From Closterium sp. NIES-65 (taxonomy: Eukaryota; Streptophyta; Zygnematophyceae; Desmidiales; Closteriaceae): 64,000 nucleotides of DNA. A model generated the notes under the pieces. That model was not told where the DNA came from, searched no databases, and saw only the letters and a program-made list of their open reading frames with translations. The number at the start of each line of letters is the position of its first letter. Within the stretch, counting starts at the first letter, position 1. Location of the stretch: the NCBI GenBank assembly GCA_948144175.1, contig CANXME010002497.1:1982501-2046500 (forward strand), in the 5' to 3' direction. Shown here one piece after another: positions 21,927 through 61,352 of the stretch. The position numbers and the translations under genes were made by a program.

Positions 21927-23150
21927 GAGAGTTTGGTGAGACCAGAGGCGACACGAGCAAGGGGCAGACTCAGGACCAGACCGGGACAGTGCAGCAAACA
22001 CCTGACCCGACGCGGCTACCTGACCAGACTCAGCAACCGGAGGAGACACTGCAGTCAGGGTGTATAGGCTCGACCCAGGCTAACGGGTGAACGTGGCCAG
22101 GTGCTGGCTCCTCCGAGTACACGAACAATGGGTCACCCGCTGACCTCCAGGAGTGAACTGGTCAACCTATGCGTCCTCAAGGTCAGCTTCACTCACCAAG
22201 TTCGTGGAGAACGAGGGGAGGTGGAGGCCAGAGAGAGAGAGAGCCAGACAGGACCGTTGGACACTGTAGAACCGTGGAGGAGTGTGCAAGGACCGGACCC
22301 CCAGAGGGGTCAGCCAGAGAGATTGCCACTGGCCGACTAAGCGGCGAGAGTGTGGTGCAGTCACGACAGAAGGAGCGGGAAGCACCCGAGTCAAGGGTAA
22401 AAGTGTGCAAGGCCGCACAGGCGCAGTACCAGAGAGAGCAGACTCACCAGCACCTGGAGGAGTGGACTCACTTGGAGCAGGAGACGCACCAGCACCTAGA
22501 GTAGCAGCCTCACCAGCACCTAGAGTAGCAGACTCTATACGTGGGTCACGCAGCACAGACAGGTAACAGGCACCCTCAGCACTAGTAGGCAATGCATACA
22601 TGACAGTGAGCATAGCATCATAGTCAAGAGCAAAGATAGCTACCCTAAGCAGCTCCAGCCAGGAGGGGAGCTCAGCATCAGCGCCAAACTCTGTACGCCA
22701 GGCGTCGCTCATACGGGAGAAGCAGCGGGACTCTGTGTGACCAAACGTCCCGCAATGCTGACCAGCCCGAGCACTAGTGCGAATGACGTACGGGCAGCGA
22801 GCAGTACTCCGTGACCCTCTACTCTAAGCGTACCACTCACGAAGCTGTTGGGGCGAAAGGACCGCGCGCGGACGCTACTGCAGCTGCACCTGGTCACTAC
22901 AAGAAGCTCCCGAACGACCCGCTTCAGGGCGACTCCCACCACGGCCACCCCTACAACCCCAACTAGTGTACCACTCACAAAGCTGCTGGGGCGAAAGAAT
23001 CTCGCGCGGACGCCACTGCAGCTGCACCTGGCCACTACAGGAAGCTCCCGAACGACCCGCTCCAGGGCGACTCCCACCACGGCCACCCCTATAACCCCAA
23101 CTAGCGTACCACTCACGAAGCTGCTGGGGCGTGAGGGACTCACGCGGACG
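21927..23150 (-). pseudogene. Copia D, gag end, zinc knuckle and protease
   Basis: Read right to left: three copies of a 46-residue module with (S/T)PQQL(R/C)EWY, then QHCGTFGHTESRCF (a three-ligand zinc-knuckle remnant), DAWR and FALDYDAML of the gag end, and the protease LDSGASRSFCRDC near 22385. The substrate/flap region and STNLVS follow, then the pre-integrase PCSCRLWSHQT. The frame is cut there, at 21927, by the LTR of element C. The capsid half of gag is missing between the leader and the modules. One TAG at 22503-22501 (minus) and small shifts are present. Confidence 0.8.
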
Positions 23151-24443: not shown

Positions 24444-27400
24444 CATGAGGCAACCCACAAGCCTGGGTACGGACCACTTGGCTCTACGGACTCGTCCGGT
24501 GCAGGTGAGTCTCTATTGCAACTCCACATTCACTAGGGCCAGTGCCTCAGTGTCAGCAGTAGCAAAAACCAAGTCTTTGACATCCACCAGGATGTAGAAC
24601 GGCGGAAGGGTAGTGTCGGTGCGTAGAAACAGCGACGGGTCAGCAGTCGAAGGAGCAAACCCAAGAGCCGCAAGTGTCGTCCTCAGTGTGTCGTGCCACT
24701 CGCGGGGCGCCTGACGCAGGCCGTACACTGAGCGCCGTAGGCTCCACTGGGTACCCTCAGGAAACGATCCAGCGAAGCCCACTTGACAGCGCAACCGGAT
24801 GGCCTCGTGAAGGCTACCTTGTAGGAAAGCTGTGGAGAAGTCGAGGGAGTGCAGCTCGTAGTCGCGCTGTGCTGCAACGTTCAGCAACACCCGAAGTGTG
24901 GTCATCTTCGGGGTAGGGGAGAAGGTCTGAAAGAAGTCGACCCCCGCACGCTGACTGAAGCCTCGAGCAACATAACATGCCTTGTAGGCAGGCGGAGAAC
25001 CAGACGATCGCTTCACTATGAAAATCCACATGCCATTGACAATGTTCGACCCAGGTGGGGGAACCTCGTCAACGTAGATGCCTGTGGACTTCCAGGAAGC
25101 CATCTCTGCGTCCATGGTTGTCTGCCACTGAGATGAGTACTCACCCGAAATCCCCTCTCTGAAAGAGCGCGGGGTGGGGATGTCAAGTGTATCCGGGTCT
25201 CTCTTAGGGGCAAGCAGCATGGTCGCAAGATGGGGTGCAGCAGCCGCAAGGCACTCCAGCTCCTCCTGCCTGTCCTCAAGAACGTCACAGCCAAGGGCAG
25301 TACAGCCAAGGGCAGTCTCACCCCCGACGGACGGAGGACCGGCAGGGACAGGGTCAGAGACAAGGCTCGCAAGGTAGTCTAGGTGGTACACAGCAGCAAA
25401 GTCAGTGAGCTCAGCGACTAAGGCAGACGTAGCAGGAGACAAGAACGAAGGGTCAGTCACCACAAGAGGGTGGACTGGACTCACAAGCAAGGTCAGACGG
25501 AGGGTCAGCAACGTCAGGAAGAGAGGACGCAGGTGGTAACAGCAGGACAACACACTGTGGAACAGAGGAAGGACGGAGTGTCATATCGTGAGTGCCTGGG
25601 ATAGCCGGAGCACGGTGACGACGAACACGAGGAACACGAGCATGGTCAGCGGCTTTAGGCTCGGGCTCAAGGTCAAAGCTAGACTTAGGCTCTCGACGCT
25701 CAGGGGTGGAAGCACGAATCTCAGGCTCTCGACACTCAGACAGGGACTGTGTCACCGCAGTGTAAGGAGTAGGAGCAGGCAGTGGGGAGTGCGGTAGCAA
25801 CGGCGGCTGGGAGTGGTCGGCCGGTGGAAACAGTAACGGGGGAGTAGTACCTGCCACAGGGAAGTCAGTAGCACCTGGCGGAAGACTGAGAAGGTGGCGA
25901 GGAGCACCAGCAGCTCCCGTACCTCCAGCACGAGCAGCTCCACCTGCACTCCTAGCAGCACCTCCAGCACCAAGAGCACCAGCACCTCCAGCACCACTTG
26001 CTTTGGCAGCTCCAGCACCTCTAGCACCAGCAGTCCCTCTAGCACCTCCAGTGCTAGTAGCTCCAGTAGCACCTCCAGCACCAGTAGTACCACCTGCTCC
26101 GGCAGCTCCAGCACCTCTGGTACGAGTACCTCCAGGACCCGCAGCTCCAGCACCTCCATTACCTCCTGCTCCAGCTCCAGCGCCTCCAGCACCAGCAGTA
26201 CCTCTAGCACCTCTAGTGCCAGCAGCTCCAGTAGCACCTCCAGTACCTCCAGCACCAGCAGTACACCTTCTCCGGCAGCTCCAGCACCTCTATACGAGCA
26301 CCTCCAAGACCAGCAACTCCAGCACTTCCAGTGCCAGCAGCTCCAGTAGCACCTCCAGCACCTCCAGCACCAGCAGTACCACCTGTTCTGGCAGCTCTAG
26401 CACCTCTAGTACGAGCACCTCCAGGACCAGTAGCTCTTGCAGCTCTAGCACTAGTAGCACCAGCACCTCCAGTGCCCGCAGCTCCAGTACCTCCAGCACC
26501 AGCAGCACCTCCAGGACTAGCAGCTCCAGTACCTCCAGCACCAGCAGCAGCTCCAATACCTCCAGTAGTACCTCCAGGACTAGCAGCTCCAGTACCTCCA
26601 GCACCAGCAGCACCTCTAGTACCTCCAGCAGTACCTCCAGCACCTCCAGCACCTCTAGGACTAGCAGCTACAGCACCAGCAACACCTCTAGGACTAGTAG
26701 CTCTAGCACCAGCAGGACTGTACCCTCCACCACCAGGACTGCCTCGCCGAATGACCCACGCACGAATCGCCTACGGCAAGAGTGTCTCAAGTAGAGCAGG
26801 CTGCGGTGGCTATCCAGCTCTAGCACCTCTAGTAGTGGTAGCTCTAGCACCTCCAGCACCAGAAGCACCTCTAGTACCTCCAGCTCCAGGACCTTCAACA
26901 GGGTCACCCACAACTCCACCGCCACTAGGACTCGTAGCACCCCCAGAGTCAGCACCCCCAGTCGCAGCACCCCCAGAACCAGCACCTCCTAGCACAGCAC
27001 CTCTAGAACCCTCACCCTCTGTCTCAGCACGTGTAGTCTCAGCTCCAGAGTCCACAGCAGCAGGATGCGGAGGGGGGGAAGATGGTCGAGGCGGAAAACC
27101 CGGGGGGTTCTCCGAGCGTGGAGACCGGCGAGTGGCCGCCGTGTCGTCCGCAACTGGGTCACCCCCCTCAGCTGGGCCAGAGGAGTCAGAAGAGATCTCC
27201 ACTGGCTCATCCAAGGGGGGTGGGTCAACCTGAGACACACCAGAGGGAGCAGGACCGTGTGGAGGGAGGGGGTCTACCGGGGGGGGGGACTGGCACCAGG
27301 GAGAGGGGTGCTAAGGGAACCGGGTGGGACGCGTGCAGGTGTAACTGGTAGAAACAGACCGACTTGTCAAAGGTGACGCGAAGACTCGACATGAGGGCAG

Positions 27401-27480: not shown

Positions 27481-27654
27481 CGGTGGTATCGCAAGGAGTG
27501 ACGCGAGGTGATGAACGTGGAGATCAGGGCACTCGAGTCATGCGATACCTGGGTGCTCGTTGATCAAGCAGCAGTCAAAGGGAGGAGGATCCTCTATAGG
27601 AAATGAGCTTTTCGAGTTAAAACCGCAGCTGACCGTACAATCGAATGATTCAAG
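27481..27654. other. Junction DNA between Copia E and Copia P
   Basis: Short unassigned stretch. A few codons before 27655 may still belong to the RT of P, but I see no LTR or motif. Confidence 0.35.
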
Positions 27655-28715: not shown

Positions 28716-30565
28716 ACCTCTACCGTCTTTGCCGCCTCTACAGCCTATAGATGTGGACTCTAGTCACACTACGGGTGAGGACTCTCGAGGTGCTGGTGCT
28801 GGGGGTGCTGAGACTGAGGGTGAGGGTTCTAGGGGTGTTGACTCTGGGGGTGCTGCGAGTCCTAATGGTGGCGGAGCCGTGGGTGCTCCTACTGCAGGTC
28901 TTGGCGTTGGACAGCAGACGACGCCTAGCCGACTCGAGACACCCTCACCGCAATAGCTTCGTGAGTGGGTCAGTCAGCAAGGCCGCTCTGGTGCTGGAGC
29001 TTGGAGTTTTGCAGGTCCTGGAGCTGCTGGTGCTGGGGGTACTACTGGTGGTCCTGGTGCTGGAGGTACTGCTGGAGGTGCTAGAGGTACTACTGGTGCT
29101 AGAGGTACTGCAAGAGGTGCTGGAGCTGCTGGTTCTAAAGGCGCTGGTGCTGATGATGGTGTTAGAGGTGTTGCTCATGCTGGAGGTGTTCGAGCTGGAG
29201 GTGCTGGAGGTGCTGCTGGTGCTGGAGGTGCTGGTGGTGTTGGTGCTGCAGGTGCTACTGGAGCTTGAGGTGCTAAATGTTCTAGAGGTACTGGAGCTGC
29301 TGGCACTGGAGGTGCTAGCGCTGCTGGTACTAGAGGTGCTTGTGCCAGAGGTGCCGGAGCTAAAGGTGCTGGTGCTGCTGGTGTTGGAGGTGCTGGAGGT
29401 GCTGCTGGTGCTAGAGGCGTTGGAGCTAGAGGTACTAGGCTAGTGCTGGAGCTGCTGGAGCTGCCCTCGGTACGGGTACTGCCCTCGCCGACTGATTTTC
29501 TACCCGCAGCCGCAGTTGTCACTACTTTTCTCGGCCCTTCGCCAAGGTCTTAGTCCCCCATCTTCCACTGGCCTCACTCCACCTCTCCTATGTCCACCGC
29601 CTACCCCGTCTCAAACACAGTTGCCACCTGGCTTCCCATTGCCTGCTCCTTCTCTCTACACAGAGCTGTCACACTCCCTGACTGAGCGTCGTGAGCCTGA
29701 GTCTCATGCTCCCACACCTGTTCGTGCTCGTCGTGTCGCCCGTCCTCGTCCTCCTGTTGTCCCAGACACTCACGTTATGACTCTTTGTCCTTCCTCTGTT
29801 CCACAGCGTGTTACGCTGCCGTCTCCTCCGGCGTCCTTTCTTCCTGACGTTCCTGACCCTAAGTCCAACCTTGCTCGTGCTGCCAATCCTACTACCACTC
29901 GTCTCCTCGCCACTGTCATCACCGACCCTTCCTTTGAGTCTAATGCTGCGTTTTCCCTAGTTATTGAGCCCGTCGACTTTGCTGCTAGGAGTCGTCTCGG
30001 CTACGTCGCGAATCTTGTTACTAAGTCTGAGTCTGTCTGTTCTCTGTCCATCGAGGGTGAGCCTGCCCTTGGCTATGACTTGAGGACAGACAGTTTGAGC
30101 CTGAGTGTCTTGCGGCCGCTTTACCTCATTTTGCATCCATGCTGCTTTGCCCTGAGGGAGACCCAGATGCACTTGACATCCATACCCTGCGCTCTTACAC
30201 TGAGGCGATCGCGGGTGAGTACTCCTCTTAGTGGCAGATAGCCATGGACGCAGAGATGGCTTCATGGAAGTCCACAGGCACCTACGTCGATGAGTTTCCT
30301 CCTCCTGGGGCGAACATCGTCGATGACATGTGGATTTTCAGAGTGAAGCGGCCGCTGGGTTCTCCGCCTGCCTTCAAGGCGCGTTACGTTGCTCGAGACT
30401 TCAGTCAGCGACAGGGGGTCGAATTCTTCCAGACCATCTACCCCACTCCAAAGATGACTACTCTCCGGGTGTTGCTGCACGTTGCAGCACAGTGTGACGA
30501 GGAACTGCACTCCCTCGACTTCTCCACAGCTTTCTTGCAGGGCAGCCTTCACGAGGAGAGCTAGC
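28716..30565 (+). pseudogene. Copia M, linker and first half of RT
   Basis: Starts in the integrase-RT linker (LPSLPPLQPIDVDS), has the motif SPQ*LREW with CAG changed to TAG at 28954, then Gly/Ala repeats in several frames. The PGTH-like region (about 29760) follows, then the LPDVPDPKS region, a TAG at 30229 at a conserved Gln, and RT (WKSTGTYVDEFPPPGANIV, VARDFSQRQG, FSTAFLQGSLHEE). The frame is split at 30565 by element L and resumes at 32193. Gag, protease and integrase are missing. Confidence 0.85.
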
Positions 30566-33795: not shown

Positions 33796-35646
33796 TAATT
33801 AAGACAGTTCAAGAGTCAGAATAAGAATTGCCATCACTACCCTCCCAGTCCCCACCAGCACAACCCTCCTCCTCATACCCATCCACGTCATAGCTGAAGT
33901 CACAACCTGCTCCTTGCCCTTCCTTGTCTTCACGGGCACCCTAGGTGTTACTTGCGAAGTGCGGGGCTTGCGCTTCTTGTCTCGCCTCCAAATTTTCACA
34001 ACACTGTCCCAATCGACCTCGTACTCCATGAGCGTCATTCTTATGAGGTCGCTCAACATCGCATTCTCGATGTTGCAAAGGTTCCAGCTTTCTATGACAT
34101 TCTGCCTTCCACTCCATGCACTGACTCATCCTCCCGCGTTTTGACAGTGGCCACACGCCCAGAGTGATACACGACCGCGGGCGCAAACTGTTTGCACACG
34201 CGGATACAGCTATCATGGTCGCCACCCAGAACGTCTTCATGCAGGCTCTCCGTCCTACCGCTCGCCTTCAGTGGTGACATCACGGTCGTCTTGGTGCTCA
34301 TCATGGAAGGCAGAAATCAGCGGCGACAATCCCCCGCCGAACTCCTCGCCATAATCGATGTAGCGCTGTTTGATGTACACCAACATCCACCAAACCACAC
34401 CTTGCAGGACAGTGAGGTCAATCTGCGAGGTACTGAGTGCTTCGTAGTTTAGGGTTGGACACACATCTTACGACCAACCTCGCAATGCTGAAAGGCGGGT
34501 TGAGGCCATTAAGAAGGTCAAGCATGTCTTCCATGAACTACATATATACATGAAACTTGTAGGAGGCGACAAGCTTGTACATCTCCTCATCGTACTTCAT
34601 CAGCAGCAGATCAACAGCGGGCAGGACCGCAACTAGGCTTGAAACCGCTGCCCCGCGAGACAGTCACTAGATATGAAGAATGCCTTGAAGCTTCAGATTC
34701 GTCTCTGTGAACACCTCCTGCAAGTCCCGGAACTTGTTGGGAATGTTGCTAGATCGCCCGAGCTGCTCCGCCAGGGTGCTGATGACTGTGTCAATGACGA
34801 CCAACTCAGGGATGTCTATAGTCGCATACCCTTGTAGCAAGCGTCTCTCTGTGCATGGGGGGTAAAGAAAATGTACGGTTAGCAAATAGAAATTAAGTGT
34901 CAGGACAGAAGTTTGACGCACACACTATACCTGTGCGCAATGCAATGTGAGGCACATATCGTCGGATGCGAGCAACTAGCCCGTTTGTTCCCCCAATCAT
35001 GTTCAACGCCCTGCCATTGCTCATTCCGGAAAACAGCCACTAAGGTATGCCAATTGATTTCTGGTGTGCTTCGACAACTGCAAAGAGAGAGGCGAAGTCA
35101 CATTTCATCACCGTCAAGAGTGTAGGAAACTTAGTCATGACTCGATTGTCCCGCAAAAAGGTGATGAACAAGGTGAGGTCGAGGTAGTGGCTCGCTTTGG
35201 TGTGCTCCATCTGGGTCGCATGCAGCCATTGAGAAATGGCACGAACAATCTACACTAAGCCATACCTGCAAGTCAGAATCAACGCGGTTGACACTTGTCA
35301 AACAAGCGGGAACAGGGGGTTGACCGGTTTTAAAAAACCATAACTTCTCACATTGAGTACTAGGTGTTGTATCCCTTACTTGGAAAGCATGAACACTTCC
35401 GTAAAGCTAAAGATTGCACGAGCTTCACCCAAGTTTCAATCGTGTCGCATGTGCAGATGAATTGCAAGACCTACAGCAAGGAGATGACACGCCCCTTCTC
35501 TGCATCGGTAACTTGTAAGAAGTCGCAGATGTGTTTCTGTTTCTTCACCTCCCCCAGCGCTATCTGCTGCCTCTCAAGTCTCTACTTGTACTTGTTGCAG
35601 CGAGCGTGCTTCTTGATTGTTTGCACCTACACGTCAATGGCACGTT
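33796..35646 (-). pseudogene. hAT-like (DUF4371/ZNF862-type) transposase, 3' part
   Basis: On the minus strand, pieces in shifting frames show a KHARCNKY block near 35600, a helix-rich part ending RKCSCFPSK near 35400, then SHYLDLTLFITFLRDN (about 35190) and IGGTNGLVARIRR followed by HCIAHR (about 34990-34940). After that come IPELVVIDTVISTLAEQL (about 34790) and a damaged RWLSRGAAV block (about 34650). This order is typical of the hAT-derived DUF4371 proteins, in which HC.AHR and RWLS are hallmarks. Stops and frame breaks are frequent, so it is inactive. The 5' part lies at 42978-43370 beyond the Copia Z insertion. It may originally have had introns, as a GTATGG-type junction occurs near 35268. 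Confidence 0.65.
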
Positions 35647-35777
35647 TGTCAGAACATATAGCTTACTTGTTTCTGTAGGCTATAGTGGGGTATCCCATAG
35701 GGGGTACAACACAATCAGGGTTTCCTATATGTACTCACTTCATTCATAGTTGATCCATTCTCGTTCATATTTTCTCA
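35647..35777 (+). repeat. 5' LTR of Copia Z
   Basis: 131 bases, TGTCAGAACATATAGC to CATATTTTCTCA. It differs from the 3' copy only in the stretch CTTACTTGTTTC versus CTTACTTTTTTC. Confidence 0.95.
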
Positions 35778-35789
35778 TGGAATCAGAGC
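35778..35789 (+). promoter_or_regulatory. Primer-binding site of Copia Z
   Basis: TGGAATCAGAGC, directly after the LTR; one base from the standard Copia initiator tRNA-Met site. Confidence 0.9.
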
Positions 35790-35829
35790 AGGTCCCTTCC
35801 TAGGGACTGTTCCTAGGGCCCATCGAAGC

Positions 35830-36660
35830 GCGCCCCGAGGCGCGCGTTTTTTTTTTTTAGCGACCCTCCGTGTCGCCCTTACCGCCGTCCTCCCGCTTAG
35901 GCCCCTCGTCGGCCCCGCTTAGGCCCCTCGTCGGCCCCGCTTAGGCCCCTCGTCGGCCCCGCTTAGGCCCCTCGTCGGCCCCGCTTAGGCCCCTAGTCGG
36001 CCCCACTTAGGCCTCGTCGGCCCCGCCTAGGCCCCGTCGGCCCCGCTTAGGCCCCGCTACGGTCCCGCGTCGGCCCCGCTTAGGCCCCGTCGGCCCCGCT
36101 TAGGCCCCACTACGGCCCCGCGTCGGCCCCGCTTAGGCCCCGTCGGCCCGCCTAGGCCCCGCTACGGCCCCTCGTCGGCCCCGCCTAGACCCCGTCGGCC
36201 CGCTGTCGGCCCCGCTATAGCCCGCCGTCGGCCCCACTACAGCCCGCCGTCGGCCCCGCTACAGCCCGCCGTCGGCCCCGCTACAGCCCGCCGCCGGCCC
36301 CGCTACAGCCCGCTGTCGGCCCCGCTCCTGCCCGCCGCCGGCCCCGCTACAGCCCGCCGCCGGCCCCGCTACAGCCCGCCGTCGGCCTCGCCGCCCGTGC
36401 TGCAGCCCGTCGCGCCACCGTGCAGCCGCCCGTGCAGCCGCCCACCGTGCCGCCCGTGAGCAGCCCCAGCCGCTCGTGAGCTGCCCGTGCAGCCGCCCGC
36501 GCCGCCCGTAAGCCCCTGCGTCACCCGAGCCGCGCGAGCCGCCCGAGCCGCCCGAGCCGCCCGAGCCGCTCGAGCCGCCCGAGCAGCCCGAGCCGCCCGA
36601 GCCGCCGGAGGAGCCGCACTCCTGCTCCTGTGGGGCCACTGCTGCTCCTGGGCTGTGTTA
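35830..36660 (+). repeat. GC-rich leader of Copia Z
   Basis: The first half repeats CGGCCCCGCTTAGGCCCCGT units, then GCCCGCCGTCGGCCCCGCTACA units; the last part repeats GCCCGAGCCGCCCGA. No convincing protein. Same order of repeat types as in elements B and F. Confidence 0.85.
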
Positions 36661-36715
36661 CTGTGCCGCTGACCTACCCGACTTTTCCTGCCCGGTGAGA
36701 CTGTCAGCTGCTGTC

Positions 36716-39700
36716 ATGGCCACCCCCACTGTCCTAGCTTTTGACGCTGAGGGTAGAGCCATTGACTTTGCAGTCTAGATTGAAGACCTGCAGCTGTACT
36801 TACTGTGTGATGCGATCGATGAGGTCTCTCTCTTTGACTTTGTGTCTGGCGCTGTCCCTGCCCCTCCTGCTGATGCTGACCCCGCCGTTCGCTCCAAGTG
36901 GGCCACACGCGATGCTGCTGCACGTCTTGCTGTGCGTCGCCACCTCCCTTCCTCCGAGCGTGCCCACTTTAGTCAGTGCAAGACCGCTCAGGCCTTGTAC
37001 GACGCTGTAGTTGCACGCTACTCCTCCCCTTCCTCCGCTACGCTTAGCCGCCTCATGCTACCGTTTCTCTTCCCTGACCTGGCTGCCTTTCCCACTGTCG
37101 CTGACCTCGTTACCCACCTCCGCGCTAGTGACGCTCGCTACCGCGCTGCCCTTCCTGCTGAGCTCCGCGCCGCAAACCCTCCTCCCATGTACATCACTCT
37201 CTACTTTCTCGTCACCCGTCTCCCTGAGTCCCTTCGTGTCGTTAGGGACCAGTCTCTCTCTCTCTGTCCCACCACCCTCACTGTCGACCTCCTTGAGGAG
37301 TCCCTGCTAGCGGCTGAGAAGAGCATTGTCGCTGTAGGGGCCTCTCGGGGTGACCCTCGCACCCCCATCTTTGAGGGGTGTTCTCCTTCCCCCCTGCTGC
37401 CCTATGTCGCCTCTGCCGCTGCGGCCGACCTCGCTGGTTTTGAGTCGGTCGGTGCGCCGTCTGCCCCCAGCGGTAGACGCCGCACTGGCAAGGGCAAGGG
37501 GGGCAAGGGAGCGGGTGGAGCTAGAGGGGGCGGTGGCGGGGGAGGTGGGGGTGGCGGGGGGAGTGGGGGTGGCGGTGGAGGTGGTGGTGGGAGTGGAGGT
37601 ACTGGTGGAGGCGGTGGAGGCGGAGGTGGCGGCGGAGGAGGTAGCGGAGGAGGAGGGGGTGAGGGTGCCGGTGGGGGCGGTGGCGGTGGAGATGGGGGTG
37701 GCGGTGGAGGCGGGGGTGGCGGTGGCGGTGGGGGTCGGAGTGGCTCGTCTCACCGGAGCAGCTCTGTGGGTGGTCAGCGCCAGCAGCAGCAGCAGCAGCA
37801 GCAGCCACAGCAGCAGCAGCGCTCTCGCACCGTCCCCGCTTCTCAGCAGCTCCGTGAGTGGTACTTGCAGCGTCAGCGTGGTGGTGCGTTTGGTCCCTAC
37901 CCCTATGTTCTTCGCACCGGCGACCGTGCGGGGGAGAGGTGTGGAGGCACCCACACAGCCCGCCGCTGCTTTGGCCGCCTGACCGACGCCTGGCGTCAGC
38001 AGTTTCCGGAGGCCGCTGAGATCCTTCGCTGGGGGGAGCTGTCTAGGGCTGGTGTAGCTATTTATGATCTTGACTTTGATGCTATTCTTTCTGCTATGTA
38101 TGCTGTGACTGGTAGTGATGAGGATCACTGTTACCAGTGTTTCCCGCCCGACCCGGGCATTGGTACTGCTGCGTCAGGTACTCGTGAGGCTGCTGCTCTA
38201 GGTGCCAGTGCGTCTGTGCTCTCAGGTACTAGTGAGTCTGCCCTCTCAGGTACTGTGTCGGCTTCGGCCTCTCACACCTTCACCCTTGACTCTGGAGCGT
38301 CTCGCTCCTTCTTTCAGGACTGCACCACTCTCACGCCGCTGAGTCGGCCTGTTGCAGTGTCCCTGACTGACCCCTCTGGGGGGCCTGTCCTGTCTCGCTT
38401 CTCCACAGTCCTCCCGTGTCCGGCGGCTCCCTCTGGCACCCTGACTGGTCTCTACCTCCCCTCGTTCTCTACGAACCTGGTGAGTGGTGCTGACCTACAG
38501 GATGTGGGTGTCCACCAGTTCACTCCTGCTCGTCAGCGGGTGACACACTGCACGGAGGCTGGCACGGGTCGCCACCTGGCTACGTTTACACGTCGGCCGG
38601 GGTCGAGCCTGTACACACTGACCACTGCTTCTCCTCCAGGTACTGAGTCAGGTAGGGTCCCTTCGTCTGGTCAGGTGTTTGCTGCAGCGTCCAGGTCTGG
38701 CCCTGAGTCTGCCCCCTGTTCGTGTCGTCGTCTGTCTCACGAGACCCTCCTCTGGCACCACCGCCTGGGTCACCCCTCTCTGCTTCGGCTCAGAGGCATG
38801 GCCTCCCGTCTTCTTGTGTCTAGTCTTCCCCGGTCCCTCCCTCCCCTTCCTCAGGGCCCTTGCCCTGCCTGTGTCCCCTGTGTCGAGGGGCGCCAGCGTG
38901 CTGCCCCTCACTCCTCCCAGTTTCCTCCGACAGAGGCCCCGTTGCAGACGCTTCACATGGACGTGTGGGGCCCAGCCCGCGTCCGTGGACAGGGTCACGA
39001 GCGCTACTTCCTGCTGGTGGTTGACGACTACTCGCGTTACACCGCAGTCTTCCCCTTGCGCAGCAAGGGTGAGGTCAATGAGGTGCTGATCGACTAGATC
39101 CGCGCAGCTCGTCTTCAGCTCAGGCAGAGCTTTGGCTCCGACTTTCCTGTGTTGCGTCTGCACTCGGACAGAGGCGGAGAGTTCTCCTCTGGCCTTCTGC
39201 GTGCCTACTGACGTGCGCGAGGCATCCGCCAGTCCTTCACGCTTCCGGACTCTCCGCAGCAAAATGGGATTGCTGAGCGCCGCATTGGCATGGTCATGGA
39301 CGTCGCCCGTACGTCCATGATGCATGCGGCTGCCCCCCATTTTCTGTAGCCGTTTGCGGTCACGTACGCAGCGCAGCGGATCAACCTCCACCCCAGGGTC
39401 TCCAGACCGGAGACCTCCCCAGCCCTGCTGTGGACGGGGAAGGTTGGCGATGCGTCGGCGTTCCGGGTCTGGGGATCTCGGGCGTTTGTCCGCGACCTGT
39501 CTGCGGACAAGCTGTCCCCTCGCGCTTCTCCCTGCGTCTTCCTGGGGTTCCCCCCCGACGCCCCTGGGTGGCAGTTCTACCACCCCACCTCTCGACGTGT
39601 TCTGTCCTCCCAGGACGTCACGTTCGACGAGTCAGTACCCTACTACCGCCTCTTCCCCTACCGCACTCTGTCCCTCCCACCACCCCCGCTCTTCTTGGTA

Positions 39701-42634
39701 CCAGGTCCCCCCCCGGTAGACCCCCTCCCCCCTCAGGGTCCTGCCCCTTCAGGTGTGTCCCAGGTAGATGCGGTCGAGCCTGTCGAGGTCACTGGTGACT
39801 CTGGTGCTACTGCGGGTGCTGAGCCTGGGGGTGCTGAGCCTGGGGGTGCTGAGCCTGGGGGTGCTGAGCCTGGGGGTGCTGAGTCTGGGGGTGCGGAGTC
39901 TGGAGGTGCTGAGCCTGGGGGTGCTGAGCCTGGGGGTGCTGAGCCCGGGGGTGCTGAGCCTGGGGGTGCTGAGCCTGGGGGTGCTGAGCCTGGGGGTGCT
40001 GTGCCTGGAGGTGCTTCGTCTCGCCGTGAGCTACTCTCCCCACAGGAGCTGCGTGAGTGGTTTGCCAGGCGCTGGAGGCGTGCTGCTGGTACTAAAGGTT
40101 CTTCGGCTGCAGAGGGTACTGCTGCCGAGCGTCCCGGAGGTGCTCGTACTGTGGGTGCTGGAGCTGCTGGGTCTGAGGGTCCTCCTGGAGCTAGTGCTGC
40201 TGAGGGTGTTGGCGCTGAGACTGCCGCTCGCGGTCCGCCTGGCAGTGCTCCTGGTGGTGCTGCTGGAGGTTCTGGAGCTACTGGAGGTGCTGCTGGAGGT
40301 GCTGCTGGAGCGGGTACTCCTGCTGGGGGTATTGGTGCTGTCCCTGCTGTTTCTAGCGTCGCCGCGCGGCCCCGACCGTACTTCGTTCCGCTCCTGCAGC
40401 AGGTTCTTGGTCTTACACCTTCTCCTGGTCCTCCTCCTCCTCCCTTAGAGGGTCCACGGCCTGTCCAGTCACAGCCACAGCTACAGCGTGCCTCCCCTTT
40501 GCCTGCTCCTTCTCCCTACGCTGGTCCGACTGGAGGTCTTACTGAGCGTCGTGAGCCTGCGTCTCGTCCTGCGTCGCCTGTTCGTACTGCGCGCGCCAGT
40601 GGTCGCGGGTCGCGTCAGCGTCCTCCTCCGGTCCCTGGCACGCACCGGATGTCACTGCGTCAGTCTACTGCTCCTCTGCGTGCCCCTTTGCCTTCTCATC
40701 CCGCTTCCTCTCTTCCTGCTCTTGCCGACCCGGAGTCGGACTCTCTTCGTGCTGCCAGTCCTACTGTCATGCGTCTCCTTGCTACTGCTGTCACTGACCC
40801 TTCCTTCGAGTCGTCTGCTGCGTCTGCCCTTGTCACTGAGCTTGTCGACTTTGCTGCGCGCTGTCGTCTAGACTACGCTGCCAGTCTTGTCGCTGAGTCT
40901 GAGTCTGCCTGTCCTCCGTCCGTCGGGGGTGAGTGTGCCCTTGGCACGGACGTCCATGAGGACAGGCAGGAGGAGTTCCAGTGTCTGGCCGCCGCTTCAC
41001 CCCATCTCGCGTCTGTACTGCTAGCCCCTGAGGGAGACCCGGATGCACCAGACATCCCGACTCCGCGCTCTTACGCGGAGGCGATAGAGGGTCCCTACTC
41101 CTCTCAGTGGCAGGCAGCTATGGATGCAGAGATGGCTTCCTGGAAGTCCACAGGCACCTACGTCGACGCTGTTCCCCCTCCTGGGGCGAACATCGTCAGT
41201 TGCATGTGGATTTTCAGGGTGAAGCGGCCACCGGGTTCTTCGCCTGTCTTCAAGGCGCGTTACATGGCTCGCGGCTTCAGTCAGCGGCAGGGGGTTGACT
41301 ACTTTCAGACCTTCTCCCCCAACCTGAAGATGACCACTCTTCGGGTTCTGCTGCACGTTGCTGCTCACCGTGACTACGACATCCACTCTCTCGACTTCAG
41401 CACCGCTTTCTTGCAGGGCAGCCTGCACGAGGAGATCTGGCTGCGTCGCCCACCTGGCTTCACTGGGTCTTTCCCTCCTGGTACCCAGTGGAGTCTCCGG
41501 CGTCCAGTCTACGGTCTCCGCCAGGCGCCACGTGAGTGGCACGACACACTGAGGACTACGCTGGCGGCACTTGGGTTTGCTCCTTCTACTGCCGACCCGT
41601 CGCTGTTTCTGCGCACCGACACCTCACTGCCGCCGTTCTACATCCTCGTGTACGTCAACGACTTGGTCTTTGCCACAGCTGACACTGCTGGACTCGCCTA
41701 CGTGAAGTCCGAGCTGCAGAAGAGACACACGTGCACTGACCTGGGTGAACTGCGTAGCTACCTTGGCTTGCAGATCACCCGGGACAGAGCACGCCGCACC
41801 ATTACCCTGACTCAGTCACACATGGTGCAGCAGGTCCTTCAGCGCTTCGGCTTCACGTACTCCTCGCCTCAGGCCACTCCTCTGCCTACTCGCCACTCGC
41901 TCTCAGCTCTGCCTTCGGATGAGTCCGTAGAGTCGAGTGGCCCGTTTGCAGAGCTTGTTGGCTGCCTCATGTACCTGATGACCTGCACACGACCTAACCT
42001 TGCATACCCTCTTAGCATTCTCGCACGCTATGTTGCTCCTGGGAGACACCGACCAGAGCACATGGCTGCAGCGAAGAGGGTGTTGCGCTACTTGTGCAGT
42101 ACGTCGGGCATGGGGCTAGTGCTTGGAGGGCGCAGTCCTGTGGTCCTCACTAGGCACGCAGACGCTTCTTGGGCTGACGACCAGGCTACACAGCGGTCGT
42201 CACAGGGTTACACCTTCAGCCTTGGTTCCGGCTCTGTTTCGTGGCGGGCTACCCGCTTGTCTTCTGTTCTCGGCTCCAGTTGTGAGGCTGAGATCTACGC
42301 TGGGGCTATGGCTGCACAGGAGTTACGCTGGCTCACCTACCTGCTGACCGACCTTGGAGAGCCGCCTCGTTCTCCTCCAGTCCTGTACGTAGACAACAAG
42401 GCCATGCTGGCCTTGTGTCGAGAGCAGCGACTGGAGCACAGAACGAAGCACATTGCTCTCCGCTACTTTCTTGCTCGTGAGCTACAGCAGCGTGGTCAAT
42501 TGCGACTTGCGTACGTGGCCTCTGAGGCCAACACTGCTGATGTCTTCACCAAGGCACTTGCGCCTTGTGATCATCAGCGTTGTTGGACGCAGTTGGGTCT
42601 TGTGCCTGTCTTGCCTCACTTGCTCTCCTCTTGA
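36716..42634 (+). pseudogene. Copia Z gag-pol, one frame with four stops
   Basis: From ATG 36716 a single frame runs 1972 codons to TGA at 42632. Order: gag start (FDAEGRAIDF), capsid region to about 37440, Gly-rich tract (37490-37740), Gln run (37778-37820), SQQLREWYLQ (37840-37863), reduced knuckle C-x3-H-x4-C (about 37940-37969), protease LDSGAS (near 38286), pre-integrase HHRLGHPS, integrase with LHMDVWGP, HSDRGGEF and QQNGIAER, pentapeptide linker (39690-40640) with LSPQELREWF, RT from about 41110, and RNase H to the end. In-frame stops are TAG 36776, TAG 39095, TGA 39209 and TAG 39347; three of them replace Trp codons of relatives. The RT active site reads YVND where relatives have YVDD (41651-41662). 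The lack of any frameshift over 5.9 kb suggests recent decay. Confidence 0.95.
39812..40015 (+). repeat. 15-base minisatellite coding GAEPG repeats
   Basis: About thirteen tandem copies of GGTGCTGAGCCTGGG and close variants, in frame, giving (Gly-Ala-Glu-Pro-Gly)n in the integrase-RT linker. The same unit with different copy numbers is in elements C, F, H and J. Confidence 0.92.
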
Positions 42635-42835
42635 CCTTGCTTGTACCTTCGCCTATATATACTCTTGCTCTTGCTTGCTTGACTCTTGTATATCTCTATA
42701 TATTACCTTGCATGTGAACTGGCCTTCTGGCCTTTGAACTTGTGCTCGGAATGCGTGGTGACTTTGTGATCCACCCTGAGCTTTGCTTTGCTTTGCTTGA
42801 CTGGTCTTGTGACCCCTTGTTCTCCCCCACTTTGC

Positions 42836-42846
42836 CTATGGGGGTG
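42836..42846 (+). promoter_or_regulatory. Polypurine tract of Copia Z
   Basis: CTATGGGGGTG directly before the 3' LTR, the start site of plus-strand DNA synthesis in LTR elements. The same string precedes the 3' LTRs of A, B, C, H and K. Confidence 0.8.
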
Positions 42847-42977
42847 TGTCAGAACATATAGCTTACTTTTTTCTGTAGGCTATAGTGGGGTATCCCATAG
42901 GGGGTACAACACAATCAGGGTTTCCTATATGTACTCACTTCATTCATAGTTGATCCATTCTCGTTCATATTTTCTCA
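42847..42977 (+). repeat. 3' LTR of Copia Z
   Basis: 131 bases; one substitution from the 5' copy. The duplication ACGTT follows at 42978-42982. Confidence 0.95.
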
Positions 42978-46354: not shown

Positions 46355-47457
46355 ATGGCTAGCCCACAGGTTCTAGTTTTTTATGCTGAGGGCCGCCCAG
46401 TGAAGTTTGACACATGGCTAGATGACCTGCACCTCTATCTACAGCTTACAGCCAAGGACGACATCTCACTGTACGACCACGCCCTAGGCCATGTCACTGC
46501 CCCTGCTGCTACTGCTGACAGCACTGCTCGCTCACAGTGGCAGACTCGTGATGCCCACGCTCGCTTCGCTATTCGCAACTCCCCGCCGATAGACGAACGC
46601 GAGCACTTTGGCCAGCACAAGACTGCACAGGCATTGTACACAGCTGTCATTGCTCGCTACTCCTCACCTGCCTCTGCCGCGCTAGGCCGTCTCTCCCTCC
46701 CCTACCTGTTTCCCGACCTGGCCTCGTTCCACACAGTCGCTGACCTCATCACGCACCTCCGTACTAGTGAGGCCCGCTTCCGTGCCGCCATGCCTGGTGA
46801 GTTCCTTGCCACGCACCCCCCCCCCACTCTGGCTCACTCTCTACCACCTAGTCACCCGCCTCCCTGACACACTGCGTGCTGTTAGGGACCAATTCCTAGC
46901 TCGCTGCCCCACTGAGCTCACCATTTCCCTCCTCGAGAAGGAACTGCTTGCAGCTGAGACTAGCATAGTCGCTGTAGGTGCCTCTTGTGGCGACCCCCGT
47001 ACTCCGTTCTTTGAGGGGTGTTCTCCTTCCCCCCTTCTTCCCTCTGTCGCCTCTGCTGCTTTTGTCGACTTCCTTGGTGCTGAGAAGGTCGGTACTGCGT
47101 TTGCTTCGAGCGTGCGCCGCAGTGGCAAGGGAAAAGGGGGCAAGGGTGGTGGCGGTGACGTCGGGGGAGGCGGTGGTGGGGGCGGTGGAGGCGGTGGGGG
47201 TGGTGGCGCGACTGGAGGGGCTAGTGGCAGCGGTGGGGGTGGTGGCGGCAGCGGCAGGGGAGGTGGCAGGGGGGGAAGGTGGTGGGGGTGGCGGTAGACG
47301 AGGCGGCGGCAGGGGTTGGGGTAGTCGAGGAGGTGGCGGCGGCGGTGGTGGTCGTGGAGGCGCTGGCGGTGGCCAGGGCCAGCAGCACACTCCGTCGCCC
47401 CTGGAGGTCCGTGAGTGGTACTCTCTACACGGGGGGGGGGGGGGGGGGGGGGGGGGG
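46355..47457 (+). pseudogene. Copia H gag
   Basis: ATG 46355 opens MASPQVLVFYAEGRPVKFD, followed by the capsid region (QHKTAQALYTAVIARYSS, LPYLFPDLASFHTVADLITHL). The frame changes at an 11-base C run (46816-46826), where relatives encode poly-Pro before YITLYY, and again within the Gly-rich tract near 47270. The tract ends in PSPLEVREWYSLHGG and a 27-base G run (47431-47457), followed downstream by the reduced knuckle QCGRPHTTQRCF. The breaks fall at homopolymers, so some may be read errors and not true lesions. Confidence 0.88.
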
Positions 47458-50400
47458 CGGGATGGCTTTAGCTGCACGTACGTCATTTGCACTGGTGACC
47501 GCACTGGACAGCAGTGTGGACGACCGCACACCACACAGCGCTGCTTCGCTTGTCTCGACGACGCTTGGCGTGTTCAGTTCCCTCAGGCCACTGAGCTGCC
47601 CCGCTGGATTGATCTCCTGAAGAAGGGGATTGATATCTATGCTCTAGACTTTGATACTATTCTATCTGCTATGTATGTGATGTCTACTAGTGGAGAGGGT
47701 GCTGAGTACCTGTATGTGCCGCCCGACCCGGGCATTACGACTAGTGCGTCTGCCGCTCCAGGTACTCGCGTGTCGGCTACCCCAGATGCTGGTGAGGCAG
47801 CTGCTCTAGGTGCTTTTGCGTCTGCCCCCCTTGGTACTGAGTCGACTGCAGCACTGCACACCTTCACACTAGACTCAGGTGCTTCTCGCTGCTTCTTCCG
47901 TGACCGCACTGCCCTTGAGCCGCTTGCTCGGCCAGTTGCTGTCTCCCTTGCTGACCCCTCTGGGGGTCCGGTCATTGCGACCTCTTCCACTGTCCTTCCC
48001 TGTCCTGCGGTCCCGTCGGGCACACTGTCAGGTCTCCACCTCCCCTCGTTCTCTACAAACTTGGTGGCAGGATGTGCGCTCCAGGACGGGGGTGTTCACC
48101 AGTTCACCCCTGCCTACGAGCGCGTGACACACTGTACGTGTGCTCGTACGGGCCGTCACTTGGCTACCTTCACTCGACAGCCGGGGTCGGACCTGTACAC
48201 ACTGACCACTGAGTCCCCTCAGGTTACTGCGTCTGCGTCTGCGTCCGCGTCACGTCAGCTATCGGCCCCCTGCTCGTGTCGCTCTCTGGCGCACGAGACT
48301 GTCCTCTGGCACCACTGCCTTGGCCACCCGTCTGTGCAGCGGCTTCGTGCCATGCACTCCCGGTACCTTGTCTCTGGCCTTCCCAGGGTCCTTCCTCCCC
48401 TCCCTCCCTCACCTGCTCCTACCTGTCTCCCCTGTGTCGAGGGACGGCAGCGCGCCGCTCCTCAGTCCTCCTCGTTTCCCCCGACGACTGCTCCCTTGCA
48501 CACGCTCCACATGGACGTGTGGGGCCCAGCCCGCGTCCGTGGTCAGGGTCAGGAGAGGTACTTCCTGATAGTTGTTGACGACTACTCGCGCTACACCTCG
48601 GTCTTCCCTTTGCGCACCAAGAGTGAGGTCCCTGATGTCTTGATCCCTTGGATCCGCAAAGCCCGTCTCCAGCTCAGCGAGCGTTTCCGCTCGGACTTTC
48701 CTGTCCTGCGCTTGCACTCTAACAGAGGTGGTGAGTTCTCCTCCGACCTCTTGGCAGCCTACTGTGCTGAGCACGGCATTGAGCAGTCGTTCACGCTTCC
48801 GGCCTCTCCACAACAGAATGGGGTTGCGGAGCGCCGCATTGGCCTGGTCATGGAGGTCGCCCATACCTCCTTGATCCATGCGGCTGCCCCCCACTTTCTG
48901 TGGCCGTTTGCTTTCCGGTACGCTGCGCATCAGCTCAACCTCTGGCCCCGTGTCTCCTTGCCGGAGACCTCGCCCACACTGTTGTGGACGGGGGAGATTC
49001 GCGATGCGTCGCGTTTCCGAGTCTAGGGATTTCGAGCTTTTGTCTGCGATACGTCTGCGGACAAGCTCTCCTCCCGTGGTGTTCCCTGCGTCTTCCTCGG
49101 CTTTGTCCCGGACGCGTCTGGTTGGCAGTTTTACCACCCCACCTCGCACCGAGTCTTGCACTCTCAGGACGTCACTTTTGACGAGTCCGTCCCCTACTAC
49201 CGCCTCTTCCCCTACCGCACTGCCACGCTCCCCCCCCCCCCCGCCTCTCTTCCTCGCGCCAGGTGCTGCTGTTGTAGACCCCCTCCCCCCTCAGGGTGCC
49301 GCTCCCTCAGGTGTGTCTCACGTAGACCCGGTTAAGCCTGTTGAGGTAGCTGTCGACTCTCGTCCTGCTGGGGGTGCTGAGCTTGGGGGTGCTGAGCCTG
49401 GGGATGCTGAGCCTTGGGGTGCCGGGACTGGGGGTGCTGAGCCTGGGGGTGCGGAGCCTAGGGGTGCGGAGCCTGGGGGTGAGGAGCCTGGGGGTGCGGA
49501 GCCTGGGGGTGCTGAGCCTGGGGGTGCTGAGCTTCGGGGTGCTGAGCCGCAGAGTCCGGAGTCTGGGGGTTCTGAGTCTGGAGGTGCTAAGCCTGGGAGT
49601 CCTACACCTGGAGGAGCCCTCTCCTCGGAGCAGCTGCGTGAGTGGTACTTACAGTACTGCAGCCTCAGGAGAGGTACCTCTGGAGCCACGCGTGCTACTG
49701 GGACTGGTGCTAGTGCTTCGCCTCCTAGTCGGGAGATCCCCTCCCGTGAGCGGATCCGTGAGTGGTACGAGCGGCGCTGCACTCTTCGGAGTGGCGCGCC
49801 TCGTGTCGCGGACCCCGCTGCCGTGGGTGCTGCTGCTGGTGCTGAGGACCCGGGCGTTGGAGCTGGTGCTGGTGCTGGGGACCCAGGCGTTGGAGCTGCT
49901 GCTGGTGCTGGAGACCCTGCCGCTGGTGCAGCTGTTGGTGCTGCGGACCCTGGTGCGGGTGTCTCTGCTGGTTCTGGTGTCACTGCACGGCCGCGGCCGT
50001 ACTTCGTTCCGCTCCTTGAGCAGGTTCTTGGTCCGCTCCCTCCTCCGTGTCCTCCTCCCTCCTTAGGGTGTCCTCTGTCTGCCCAGCTGCCGTCGCAGCT
50101 ACCATCTGCCTCCTCTCTCCCTGGTCCTGCTCCTTACACTGGTCCGACTGGAGGTCTTACTGAGCGTCGTGAGCCTGAGTCTCGTCCTGCGTCGCCTGAG
50201 CCTCGTCGTGCATCACGTGTCCGTGCTGCTCTCACTGGTAGTCGTGTCCCGCGTCAGCGTCTTCCTGCTGTCCCAGGCACTCACCAGGTGGCGCTTCGTC
50301 CGTCCACTGCTCCACAGCGTGTCCCACTGCCGTCTCCTCCTGCTTCCTCTCTTCCTGCTCTTGCTGACCCGGGGTCAGACTCCCTTCGTGCTGCCAGTCC

Positions 50401-52650: not shown

Positions 52651-53772
52651 AGCTATTTCTGCAGTGCGACTCTAGGGACGGAGTTTCATTGTTCAATCAC
52701 ACGTCTGGCGTCGCTGTTGCACCTGCTGCGGATGCTAACAGTTCCGTTCGTTCGCAGTGGACCACGCGCGATGCGGCTGCGCGCCTTGCTGTTTGTAGTC
52801 ACCTGCCGTCTGCTGAGTGCGCGCACTTTAGCCCGTACAAGACCGCTAGGACTCCGTACGATGCTGTTGTTCCGGGCTACTCCTCCCCTGCCACTGCAGC
52901 CCTTAGCCGCCTCATGCTGCTGGATCTGTTCCCTGACTTAGCCACTTTTGCCACAGTCGCTGACCCCATTACGCACCTCCGCACTAGTGACACCTGCTAC
53001 CGCGCTATGTTTCCTACCGAGTTTTGCGCCGCGAACCCCCCCCCCCCCATATACATCACTCTCTACTACCTCGTCACCCGTCTCCCTGACTCCCTTCGCT
53101 CGGTAAGGGACCACTTCCTCTCCCTTTGCCCCACCACGCTCACCGTTGTCCTCCTCGAGGAGCCCCTCCTTGCAGCTGAGAAGAGTATAGTCGCTGTAGG
53201 AGCCTCTCGTGGTGACCCTCGTGCCCCTTTCTTTGAGGGTTGCTCCCCCGTCCCTCGTTTGCCCTCTGTTGCCTCTGCTGCTGTTGTCAACCTCGTTGGC
53301 ACCGAGTCGGTCGGCGCTGCGTCTGCTCCTAGTGGGAGGCGCCGCAATGGCAAGGGCAAGGGGGGCAAGGGTGCTGGAGGGGATGGCGGGGGCGGCGGTG
53401 GTGGCGGTGGAGGCGCCGGAGGGGATGGGGGTGGAGGTGGGGATGGTGGCGGGAGTGGGGGCTTCGGTAGCGGTGGTGGAGGTGGAGGCAGCGGAGGCAA
53501 CAGTGGTGGGGGTGGAGGTGGGGGTGGAGGTGGTGGTGGCGGCAGCGGCGGTGGGGGTGGCGGCGGCGGTGCTGGTCGGGGTGGCGCTGTGCAGCGGGGA
53601 GGCTTTGGCGGTGGTCAGCGCTAGCAGCAGAAGCGCCCTCGTGAGACCTTGTCACCCCAGCAGCTTCGTGATTGGTACGCAGGGCGTCAGAGGTCTGGGG
53701 GTGCCGGTCCCTCCACTTACGTTCTCCGCACCGGCGACCGTAGTGGAGAGACATGCGGCGGCCCGCACGCCA
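52651..53772 (+). pseudogene. Copia I gag, remainder
   Basis: Resumes the gag split by H: LFLQCDSRDGVSLFNHTSG, capsid region (SHLPSAECAHFSPYK, YLVTRLPDSLRSVRDHFL), a 13-base C run (53036-53048) that keeps the frame, and a Gly-rich tract (about 53360-53600). A TAG at 53622 replaces a Gln codon, then TLSPQQLRDWYAGRQR and the first half of the knuckle TCGGPHA. At about 53772 the sequence changes in mid-codon into minus-strand RT-region DNA of element J. Pol and 3' LTR of I are not found. Confidence 0.88.
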
Positions 53773-54777
53773 AGTCGACAAGCTCAGCAACTAAGGCAGA
53801 CGCAGCAGTGGACTCAAAGGAAGGGTCAGTGACAGCAGTATCCAGGAGACGCGTGACAGTAGGACTGGCAGCACAAAGAGAGTCAGACTCCGGGTCAGCA
53901 AGAGCAGGAAGAGAGGACTCTGGGGGAGACGGCAAAGGGACACGCAGTGGAGCAGTTGAAGGACGCAGTGCCATCTGGTGTGTGCCCGGGACTGAAGGAG
54001 GACCCTGATGCAGAACACAATGACTAGTGCGAGCAGCACAAACAGGCGACGCAAGACAAGACGCAGGCTCACGACGCTCAGCAAGACCTCCAGTAGGACC
54101 AGTGTAGGGAGGAGGGGCTGGCAGTGAGGAGGCGGGCTGTAAGTGTGACTCGGACTGGACAAGCAGTGGACACTCTAAGGGAGGAGCAGGACCAGTAGAG
54201 GGCGGAAGTCCAAGAACCTGCTCAAGGAGCGGAACAAAGTACGGCCGTGGCCGCGCAGCACCTCCACAACTAGCAGGGACAGGTACAGCATCCCCAGAGT
54301 CGGCCACGACTCCAGCAGCTCCACCATCTCTAGGAGCAGCTACTCCAGCACCCACAGGAGCACCGGCAACAGCAGCACCTCCAGCTCTAGCACCTCCAGC
54401 AGCTCCAGCTCCAGTAGGAACATCGTAAGACCCAACAGCCCCAGCTCCAGCACCTCCAGCAGCACCTACTCCAGTAGCACCGCCAGCTCCAGCACCGCCA
54501 GCAGCTCCAGCACCAGGAGCACCCCCTGGCCCAGCAGCTCCAGTACCTCCAGTACGAGCACCTCCGGGACCCGTGGCGTCAGCACCCTCATCAGCAGTAG
54601 AACCTCCTGCTCCAGCGGCACCTCCAGCTCCAGCAGCACGACTCCAGCGCCGAGCAAACCACTCGCGCAGCTCCTGTGGAGAGGGTACCTCCCGCTGGGA
54701 CGAACCACCCGAAGGACCTCCAGACCCAGTACCGCCAGACTCCACACGAGCAGGCCCAGCACCCTCAGGCTCCGCAC
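53773..54777 (-). pseudogene. Copia J, linker and pre-RT region
   Basis: Minus strand: Gly/Glu/Pro repeats (GAEPEGAGPARVESGG), VPSPQELREWFARRWSRAAG near 54690, Ala/Gly repeats, RPRPYFVPLLEQVLGLPPSTG near 54230, TGGLAERREPAS and PGTHQMALRPST near 53990. The last recognisable part is LADPESDS and FESTAASALVAELVD near 53775, where it stops against Copia I. RT, RNase H and all upstream genes are missing. The copy is split at 54777 by element K and its repeats resume at 56441. Confidence 0.88.
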
Positions 54778-60047: not shown

Positions 60048-61352
60048 ATGGCTTCCCCTAGCGTTCTCACCTTTGACGCTGAGGGTCGGGCAGTGGACTT
60101 TGAGGTCTGGGTAGATGATCTACAGCTTTTTCTGTAGTGCGATAGGGCAGACGGCCTCTCCCTGTTTGACCTCACTTCTGGTGCCTCCCCTGCCCCTGCT
60201 GCTGATGCTGACACAACTGTTCGCTCACAGTGGGCCACGCGCGATGCTGCTGCTCGCCTTGCTGTGCGCCGCCACTTACCGACCACTGAGCGTGCACACT
60301 TTAGCCAGTACAAGAGTGCTCAGACCTTGTAGGACGCTGTAGTTGCACGCTACTCTTCCCCTACCACTGCTGCACTGAGCCGCCTCATGCTACCGTACCT
60401 CTTCCCTGACCTTGCTGCCTTTCCCACTGTCGCTGACCTCATTACGCACCTCCGCACTAGTGACACTCGCTACTGCGCTGCGCTTCCTGCTGAGTTCTGC
60501 GCCAAGAACCCCCCCCCCCCCCCCCCCATGTACATCACCCTCTACTACATAGTCACCCGGCTCCCTGAATCTCTTCGCGTAGTCAGGGACCACTTCCTCT
60601 CAGTTTGCCCCACCACTCTCACCGTTGACCTCCTCGAGAAGGCCCTCCTAGCGATAGAGAAGAGCATAGTCGCTGTAGGAGCCTCTCGTGGTGACCCTCG
60701 CACCCCCGTCGTTGAGGGGTGTTCTCCCTCCCCCCTCTTGCCCTCTGTTGCCTCTGCTGCTGCGGCCGACCTCGTTGGTTTCGAGTCGGTCGGCGCTGCG
60801 TGTGCCCCGAGCGGGAGACGTCGCACCGGCAAGGGCAAGGGGGGCAAGGGCACTGGAGGGGGTGGAGGGGGCGATGGAGGTGGTGGTGGAGGCGGTCGAG
60901 GGAGTGGGGGTGGTGGTGGGGGTGGTGCCGGGGGTGGCGGCGGCGGCGGCAGCAGTGGAGGCGGTGGAGGCGGTGGAGGTGGCGGAGGGAGCGGAGGCGG
61001 CGGAGGTAGTGGAGGAGGCGGAGGTGGAGGAGGCGGCAGAGGCGTTGGAGGCGACAGCAGCGGAGGCGGCGGTCGTGGATCGAGCCGCGACTCTGCGTCG
61101 AGGAGTGGCGCCGGTGGTGGTCAGCGCCAACAACAGCAGTGGAGTGGTGTGACCCTGTCGCCTCAGCAGCTTCGTGAGTGGTAAACTGCACGCCAGCGCG
61201 GTGGGGGTTTTGGTCCCTGCTCTTACGTTCTCCGTACCGGCGACCGCACTGGTGAGCTGTGCGAAGGTCCGCACTCCACCCAGCGCTGCTTTGGTCGCCT
61301 GACGGACGCGTGGCGTCGTCAGTTCCTTGAGGCGTCAGAGATCCCTCGCTAG
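60048..61352 (+). pseudogene. Copia F gag
   Basis: ATG 60048 starts MASPSVLTFDAEGRAVDFEV. One frame runs to 61352 with TAG 60135 (Gln in relatives), TAG 60330 (Tyr), TAA 61182 (Tyr, right after TLSPQQLREW) and TAG 61350 (Trp). It has the capsid region, a 19-base C run (60509-60527) that keeps the frame as poly-Pro before MYITLYY, a Gly-rich tract (about 60850-61080) and the reduced knuckle LCEGPHSTQRCF near 61258-61293. Confidence 0.92.

Follow-up and report, generated by a model that had tools for sequence, protein, structure and literature searches.

How a Copia-type integrase is retained in the particle and finds its target is known mainly from yeast, and the targeting segment of Ty1 is not known to recur in Gag. 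That segment, TD1, which binds AC40 of Pol III, sits between two basic nuclear signals in a long disordered integrase tail (PMC10050235), and the Ty5 targeting domain, which binds Sir4, is a short linear motif in integrase (PMC4700185). Short sequences also mark the polyprotein junctions of Ty1, where two of the three protease sites are alike (PMC6952103), and plant Ty1/copia elements are described as highly similar in structure (PMC6317226). The elements analysed here share with plant Ty1/Copia lineages (Ale, Osser, SIRE and others) the order gag, protease, integrase, RT and an RVT_2-type RT, but a long repeat linker carrying a conserved motif belongs to the Closterium elements. Like TD1, this motif is a short segment in a long disordered integrase tail beside basic residues; it differs from TD1 in sequence, and TD1 lies near the IN C-terminus.

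The window, i.e. the whole 64-kb stretch of DNA that was analysed (G+C 0.59, part of an 874-Mb genome in 2400 contigs), holds by our own count about a dozen Copia elements, nested in one another or broken. Z is the best preserved of these. LTRs and a primer site are present, as in a Ty1/Copia LTR retrotransposon, and the Pfam domains gag_pre-integrs, rve, SH3_retrovirus and RVT_2 follow one another in the Ty1/Copia layout, with the protease position assigned by eye from its DSGA motif. The parts of Z referred to below are:

35644..42977, forward strand: Z element, with short end repeats at 35644-35777 and 42844-42977 (134 nt each, 99% identity)
directly after the first end repeat, forward strand: PBS-like sequence TGGAATCAGAGC
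37871..38140, forward strand: Z gag segment after the motif, with a zinc-type C-x3-H-x4-C and the conserved gag C-terminal region
39749..40366, forward strand: Z integrase-RT linker of G/A/E/P repeats

An array of 11/22-bp GC-rich repeats (35862-36435) separates the Z primer site from gag, and despite the 99% identity of the end repeats the Z frame has at least two stops in 39095-39349, one open reading frame ending at 39097 and the next opening at 39350. In related copies the frames run to about 2,180 codons, which suggests that gag and pol may form a single frame in this lineage. Elsewhere in the window, an RT from another Copia lineage (28% identity to Z) lies at 27511-28689, in the 26-29 kb region; one copy has a gag zinc segment fused straight to RT at 16723-16736, by internal deletion or recombination; and open frames at 2434-4207 resemble, by eye, a C2H2-type protein and a DNA transposase.

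An earlier note on this DNA had claimed that a short module, SPQQLREW(Y/F), is present in both gag and the integrase-RT linker of the same elements. A position-matrix scan over all six frames of the window confirmed this, and the coordinates given earlier for the motifs of Z, F and H agree with ours to within 9 bases; the Z gag copy had been misread as SPQQLREWY, the actual sequence being PASQQLREWY. The module comprises 12 residues, roughly [LP]S-P-[QE]-[QE]-(L/I/V)-R-E-W-(Y/F/V), and occurs in 19 copies, 11 in gag and 8 in the linker, with a 20th, decayed copy in the 26-kb linker. Every copy lies within Copia sequence, and the window contains no match outside it. The sites are:

37835..37870, forward strand: Z gag motif PASQQLREWYLQ
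40034..40069, forward strand: Z linker motif LSPQELREWFAR
61155..61190, forward strand: F gag motif, interrupted by a stop at the Y position
63362..63397, forward strand: F linker motif LSPEELREWFAR
47392..47427, forward strand: H gag motif PSPLEVREWYSL
49619..49654, forward strand: H linker motif, copy 1
49739..49774, forward strand: H linker motif, copy 2, 120 bp after copy 1
16418..16453, forward strand: gag motif of the 16-kb element, interrupted by a stop at the W position
18972..19007, forward strand: linker motif of the 18-kb element
53649..53684, forward strand: gag motif of the 53-kb element
54650..54685, reverse strand: linker motif of the 54-kb element
22824..23135, reverse strand: gag array of three tandem motif units with 138 bp spacing (23135, 22997, 22859)
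7738..8004, forward strand: second-branch gag array of three tandem units (7738, 7858, 7969), shortly before the protease (8083)
9502..9537, forward strand: linker motif of the 7.7-kb second-branch element, with a 94-nt DNA alignment to gag unit 1
28942..28977, forward strand: linker motif of the 29-kb element, with one internal stop; downstream DNA nearest gag unit 1
26747..26782, reverse strand: decayed linker motif of the 26-kb element; downstream DNA nearest gag unit 2

The 19 copies score 18.2-39.4, against 11.2 for the next match and 17.9 for the top score in 20 second-order Markov shuffles. Since the matrix was built from 14 of the 19, the test is circular for those 14; the five copies outside matrix building (7738, 7858, 7969, 9502 and 28942) score 18.2-30.3, and the lowest two (7858 and 7969) barely exceed the shuffle maximum but stand in register within a tandem array. 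Tandem copies occur as three units in each of two gag arrays and as two in the H linker, and the Y/F position is taken by V or G in the 7.7-9.5 kb element and the 29-kb element. All six gag zinc-type segments that were found have the motif, with a query that itself began with the motif. The eight sites found through the segment after the linker comprise six with the motif, one with a decayed copy and one without. The motif-less site lies at 12-14 kb on the reverse strand, in a stretch that by eye appears interrupted.

In gag, the motif comes after a stretch rich in Gly or Gln. Six elements then have a zinc-type segment followed by a conserved gag region about 60 residues long. The zinc-type segments (37871-37990, 47430-47560 and, on the reverse strand, 22700-22823) read C-x3/4-H-x4-C and thereby depart from CCHC spacing; some copies have, by eye, an extra Cys 13 residues upstream. 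Three gag segments gave no Pfam match at E up to 10, with HMMER filters that drop most weak matches, and the Z gag segment gave no match to the PDB. The ten second-branch array copies match up to query position 388-391, which is the protease junction, and have no zinc segment there, the query itself being without one, so that copies having one would rank lower.

In the linker, the motif forms an island amid G/A/E/P repeats in all five aligned sequences. The 20-residue motif window of Z contains three W/Y/F and the remaining 186 residues none; the motif window likewise holds most aromatics in five of six linkers, the exception being the 9.5-kb linker (one inside, five outside), and Arg/Lys make up 15-25% of the motif windows against 3-6% of the rest of the six. 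An AlphaFold2 model has the motif as the sole confident helix of the Z linker (residues 98-113, spanning PQELREWFARRWRRAA; block pLDDT 74-87, other blocks at most 58). Alignment and model thus agree on a short motif in a disordered integrase tail, the disorder being read from low pLDDT with five rows. The other clear island of the linker, on its RT side (40367-40411 and counterparts), reads RPRPYFVPL.QVLG and is modelled as a short low-confidence helix. For gag, the model is of low confidence (mean pLDDT 47), with a helix at 32-43 over the motif (block means 46-49). The suggestion of the earlier note that the module is a docking helix common to Gag and Pol gains in part from the linker model, and from the slower protein evolution described next.

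Over eight disjoint pairs, three of which are tandem copies within one element, nonsynonymous differences are about threefold rarer in the motif (12.7 in 146 sites) than in its flanks (90 in 348), with p 1e-5 in a density test that counts sites as independent and with flanks compared without gaps, which inflates flank differences; synonymous differences show no such contrast (11.3 in 40 against 45 in 126, p 0.44). The N:S table for the same pairs is not significant (p 0.25), with a ratio of 0.31 for the core and 0.63 and 0.86 for the flanks. The proposal that the motif evolves more slowly than its surroundings is thus borne out by nonsynonymous density, but not by the N:S ratio. When all pairs are used, and these are non-independent, pN/pS in four Z-like linkers is 0.10 for the 8-residue core, 0.15 for the 12-residue motif, 0.51-0.57 for the nearest 6-8 codons and 0.73-0.75 for the 20-codon flanks. 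The same all-pairs calculation for four gags gives 0.21 for the core, 0.42 for the whole motif, 0.44 for the next 6 codons, 0.50 for the 20 downstream codons and 0.70-0.90 upstream; in gag, only the 8-residue core is more constrained than the downstream codons, and the 12-residue motif as a whole is not. Benchmarks are 0.21-0.27 for RT, 0.15-0.25 for the integrase end, 0.30 for the gag N-terminus and 0.27-0.58 for the zinc segment. Between gag and linker, in five disjoint pairs, the core has pN 0.14 and pS 0.68 and the flanks pN 0.61-0.72 and pS 0.63-0.72. In the Z family, the motif residues L, R, E, W and F are invariant over the 22 distinct linker stretches that 30 loci, Z among them, provide, and the 8-residue core has 10 synonymous against 3 nonsynonymous variants within what is one young family. 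A signal at the DNA or RNA level is disfavoured, because synonymous sites within the motif vary.

The earlier note held that similarity explained only by recent gene conversion between the two sites would speak against a function. Within an element, the gag-linker DNA alignment covers 19 nt in Z, 18 nt in F and 14 nt in H, so that recent gene conversion is no explanation there. The scores are 28, 21 and 28, with 95% points of 22, 21 and 22 and maxima of 29, 26 and 27 in 200 shuffles; gag and linker are alike at 39-56% of third positions, and the top gag-linker score among the Z-like elements and H is across elements (Z gag against H linker, 44). The second branch does share DNA beyond the motif, and clearly so: in the 7.7-9.5 kb element the gag-linker alignment extends over 94 nt with a score of 93, against at most 29 in shuffles, and third positions are 72-89% alike.

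Which gag unit the second-branch linkers resemble was compared for six linkers and seven of 11 gag arrays, the other four having fewer than three recognised units or a frame shift. Over the whole unit, gag unit 2 is closest to the 26-kb linker (67, with 36 for unit 1) and to the C244 linker (75, with 55 for unit 1), whereas units 1 and 2 are not distinguished by A (67/69), 29-kb (54/56), C1988 (63/60) and C740 (52/48). When the comparison is restricted to the 45 nt that follow the motif, unit 2 again scores 37 for 26-kb and 42 for C244, as against 13-14 for unit 1. The linkers A, 29-kb, C1988 and C740 appear to lean towards unit 1 there (28.7, 30.3, 28.0 and 20.3, against 21.9, 24.6, 21.4 and 16.3 for unit 2 and 12-16 for unit 3), although the control linkers of Z, the 18-kb element and H reach 12-19 and C740 is hardly higher. 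The second-branch linker modules thus resemble different gag units yet occupy the same place in the linker. The simplest reading would be that modules moved out of gag in two separate exchanges; a linker that originally had two units, lost differentially, would also fit.

Relatives elsewhere in the same genome have the motif at both gag and linker, and three element groups do so, as distinguished by module sequence rather than by a tree. In the Z family, the linker motif is present at 30 of 30 loci around the best integrase matches, Z among them, and the gag motif in seven of eight fetched stretches and in three of the 30 integrase-centred loci, within their span; the eighth gag stretch (L067), fetched at a guessed place, lacks it. 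Ten H-family loci, including H, gave the motif in nine gags and nine linkers, and in both for eight, with two linker copies in every linker covered. The first of these has lost the motif Glu in six of nine elements (L073-L082) while the second keeps IREWY in nine of nine, which is how redundant sites would be expected to behave. In the second branch, a 391-nt gag array has at least 41 matches, spread over 40 places among which is the window's own. All ten arrays fetched have the motif, in 27 copies, and eight of these ten were extended, three showing a linker motif and the other five reaching RT, another element or unrelated sequence and being counted neither way.

Other Copia copies have the motif in none of 30 RT-side loci, a set that includes several near-identical copies and in which some linkers may be incomplete, and eight of their frames, inspected by eye, have linkers without it. 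The 40 kb adjoining the window contain no match scoring 15 or more (one stretch holds 2,500 N), and collections of viral and prokaryotic contigs yielded no confirmed relatives outside this genome. Among the loci examined, the motif is confined to one Copia lineage. The residue after the W differs by group and tends to agree between gag and linker (Y/Y in H, mostly V/V in the second branch, Y/F in Z), an agreement drawn from three groups, in one of which shared DNA accounts for it. In one open literature library we found no published description of SPQQLREW or its variants, variant matches being unrelated by title; the earlier note, too, knew of no such repeated module in described Copia elements.

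Given a conserved core common to gag and pol, we infer a function, and we tentatively prefer the reading that the module is an interchangeable docking helix in Gag and Pol with a common, probably element-encoded, putative partner. The 12 residues would form a short amphipathic helix that is capped N-terminally by Ser-Pro, carries L/I/V, W and Y/F/V along one face and ends in an Arg-rich tail. This helix would act as a docking motif, in one to three copies after the Gly-rich stretch of Gag and in one or two copies in the low-complexity tail that joins integrase to RT in Pol. The Gag and Pol copies would dock on one and the same partner, most likely a surface that the element itself provides, such as the Gag lattice or a further domain of Gag-Pol; processed integrase or RT would thereby be kept with Gag and nucleic acid, and repeated copies would add avidity. 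That there is binding at all, and a common partner, we infer from sequence and models; group-specific residues within one host genome weakly suggest that the partner is encoded by the element. Possible as well, and held with more reserve, is that a helix shared by Gag and the integrase tail has been exchanged between the genes by recombination, which would keep both matched to one partner. Against docking, if gag and pol are one frame, as the long frames suggest, Pol would enter the particle in any case before it is cleaved. The low confidence of the gag model, the non-significant N:S contrast and a top gag-linker score that falls across elements (Z gag with H linker) also count against it.

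In another reading, which we find rather doubtful, the motif would be a recognition or cleavage site of the element protease at the capsid/nucleocapsid-like boundary, directly upstream of the zinc segment, and at the integrase/RT boundary. Both places are plausible Copia polyprotein cut positions, both lie in low-complexity stretches, one shared enzyme would keep the two copies alike, and in the 7.7-kb element gag unit 3 stands directly before the protease. The Ty1 Gag/PR and PR/IN sites are indeed alike (TARAH*NVSTS and VPTIN*NVHTS), but the Ty1 IN/RT site is unlike these two (PMC6952103). The Ty1 sites are, moreover, without a long conserved core, and the junctions at which they resemble each other are those where Z, F and H have no match, the gag-protease and protease-integrase intervals being empty even at 8 units. 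A scissile position would also need to accept Y, F, V or G, the linker copy is predicted to be helical, and tandem copies 37-46 residues apart would be unnecessary for cutting.

By analogy with Ty1 and Ty5, the motif could instead serve host docking or nuclear/chromatin targeting in the integrase tail and be reused by Gag, which we think unlikely. Its address resembles that of TD1, which in Ty1 occupies a short part of the disordered C-terminal half of integrase (PMC10050235), and the concentration of Arg/Lys in the motif windows fits, as the Arg-rich tail may be a nuclear signal or a nucleic-acid contact. The Ty5 segment resembles the host protein Esc1 (PMC4700185), not its own Gag, and has another sequence. 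A host partner in one genome should, however, be the same for all groups, yet the residue after the W differs between them, and the absence of matches outside Copia sequence in the window counts against this reading as well. It is very unlikely, finally, that the stretch has no function and reached both gag and linker through recombination among G-rich repeats. The DNA sharing in the second branch, the position of both sites amid repeats and the non-significant N:S contrast would suit such an origin, but nonsynonymous change is rarer in the motif at equal synonymous change, the Z-family residues are invariant, and so little DNA is common to the two sites in Z, F and H.

A motif that Gag and the integrase tail have in common, conserved while its surroundings change freely, offers a specific and testable way towards a putative shared partner in a plant-type lineage. 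Its apparent exchangeability also makes it an example of module sharing between the genes of one element.
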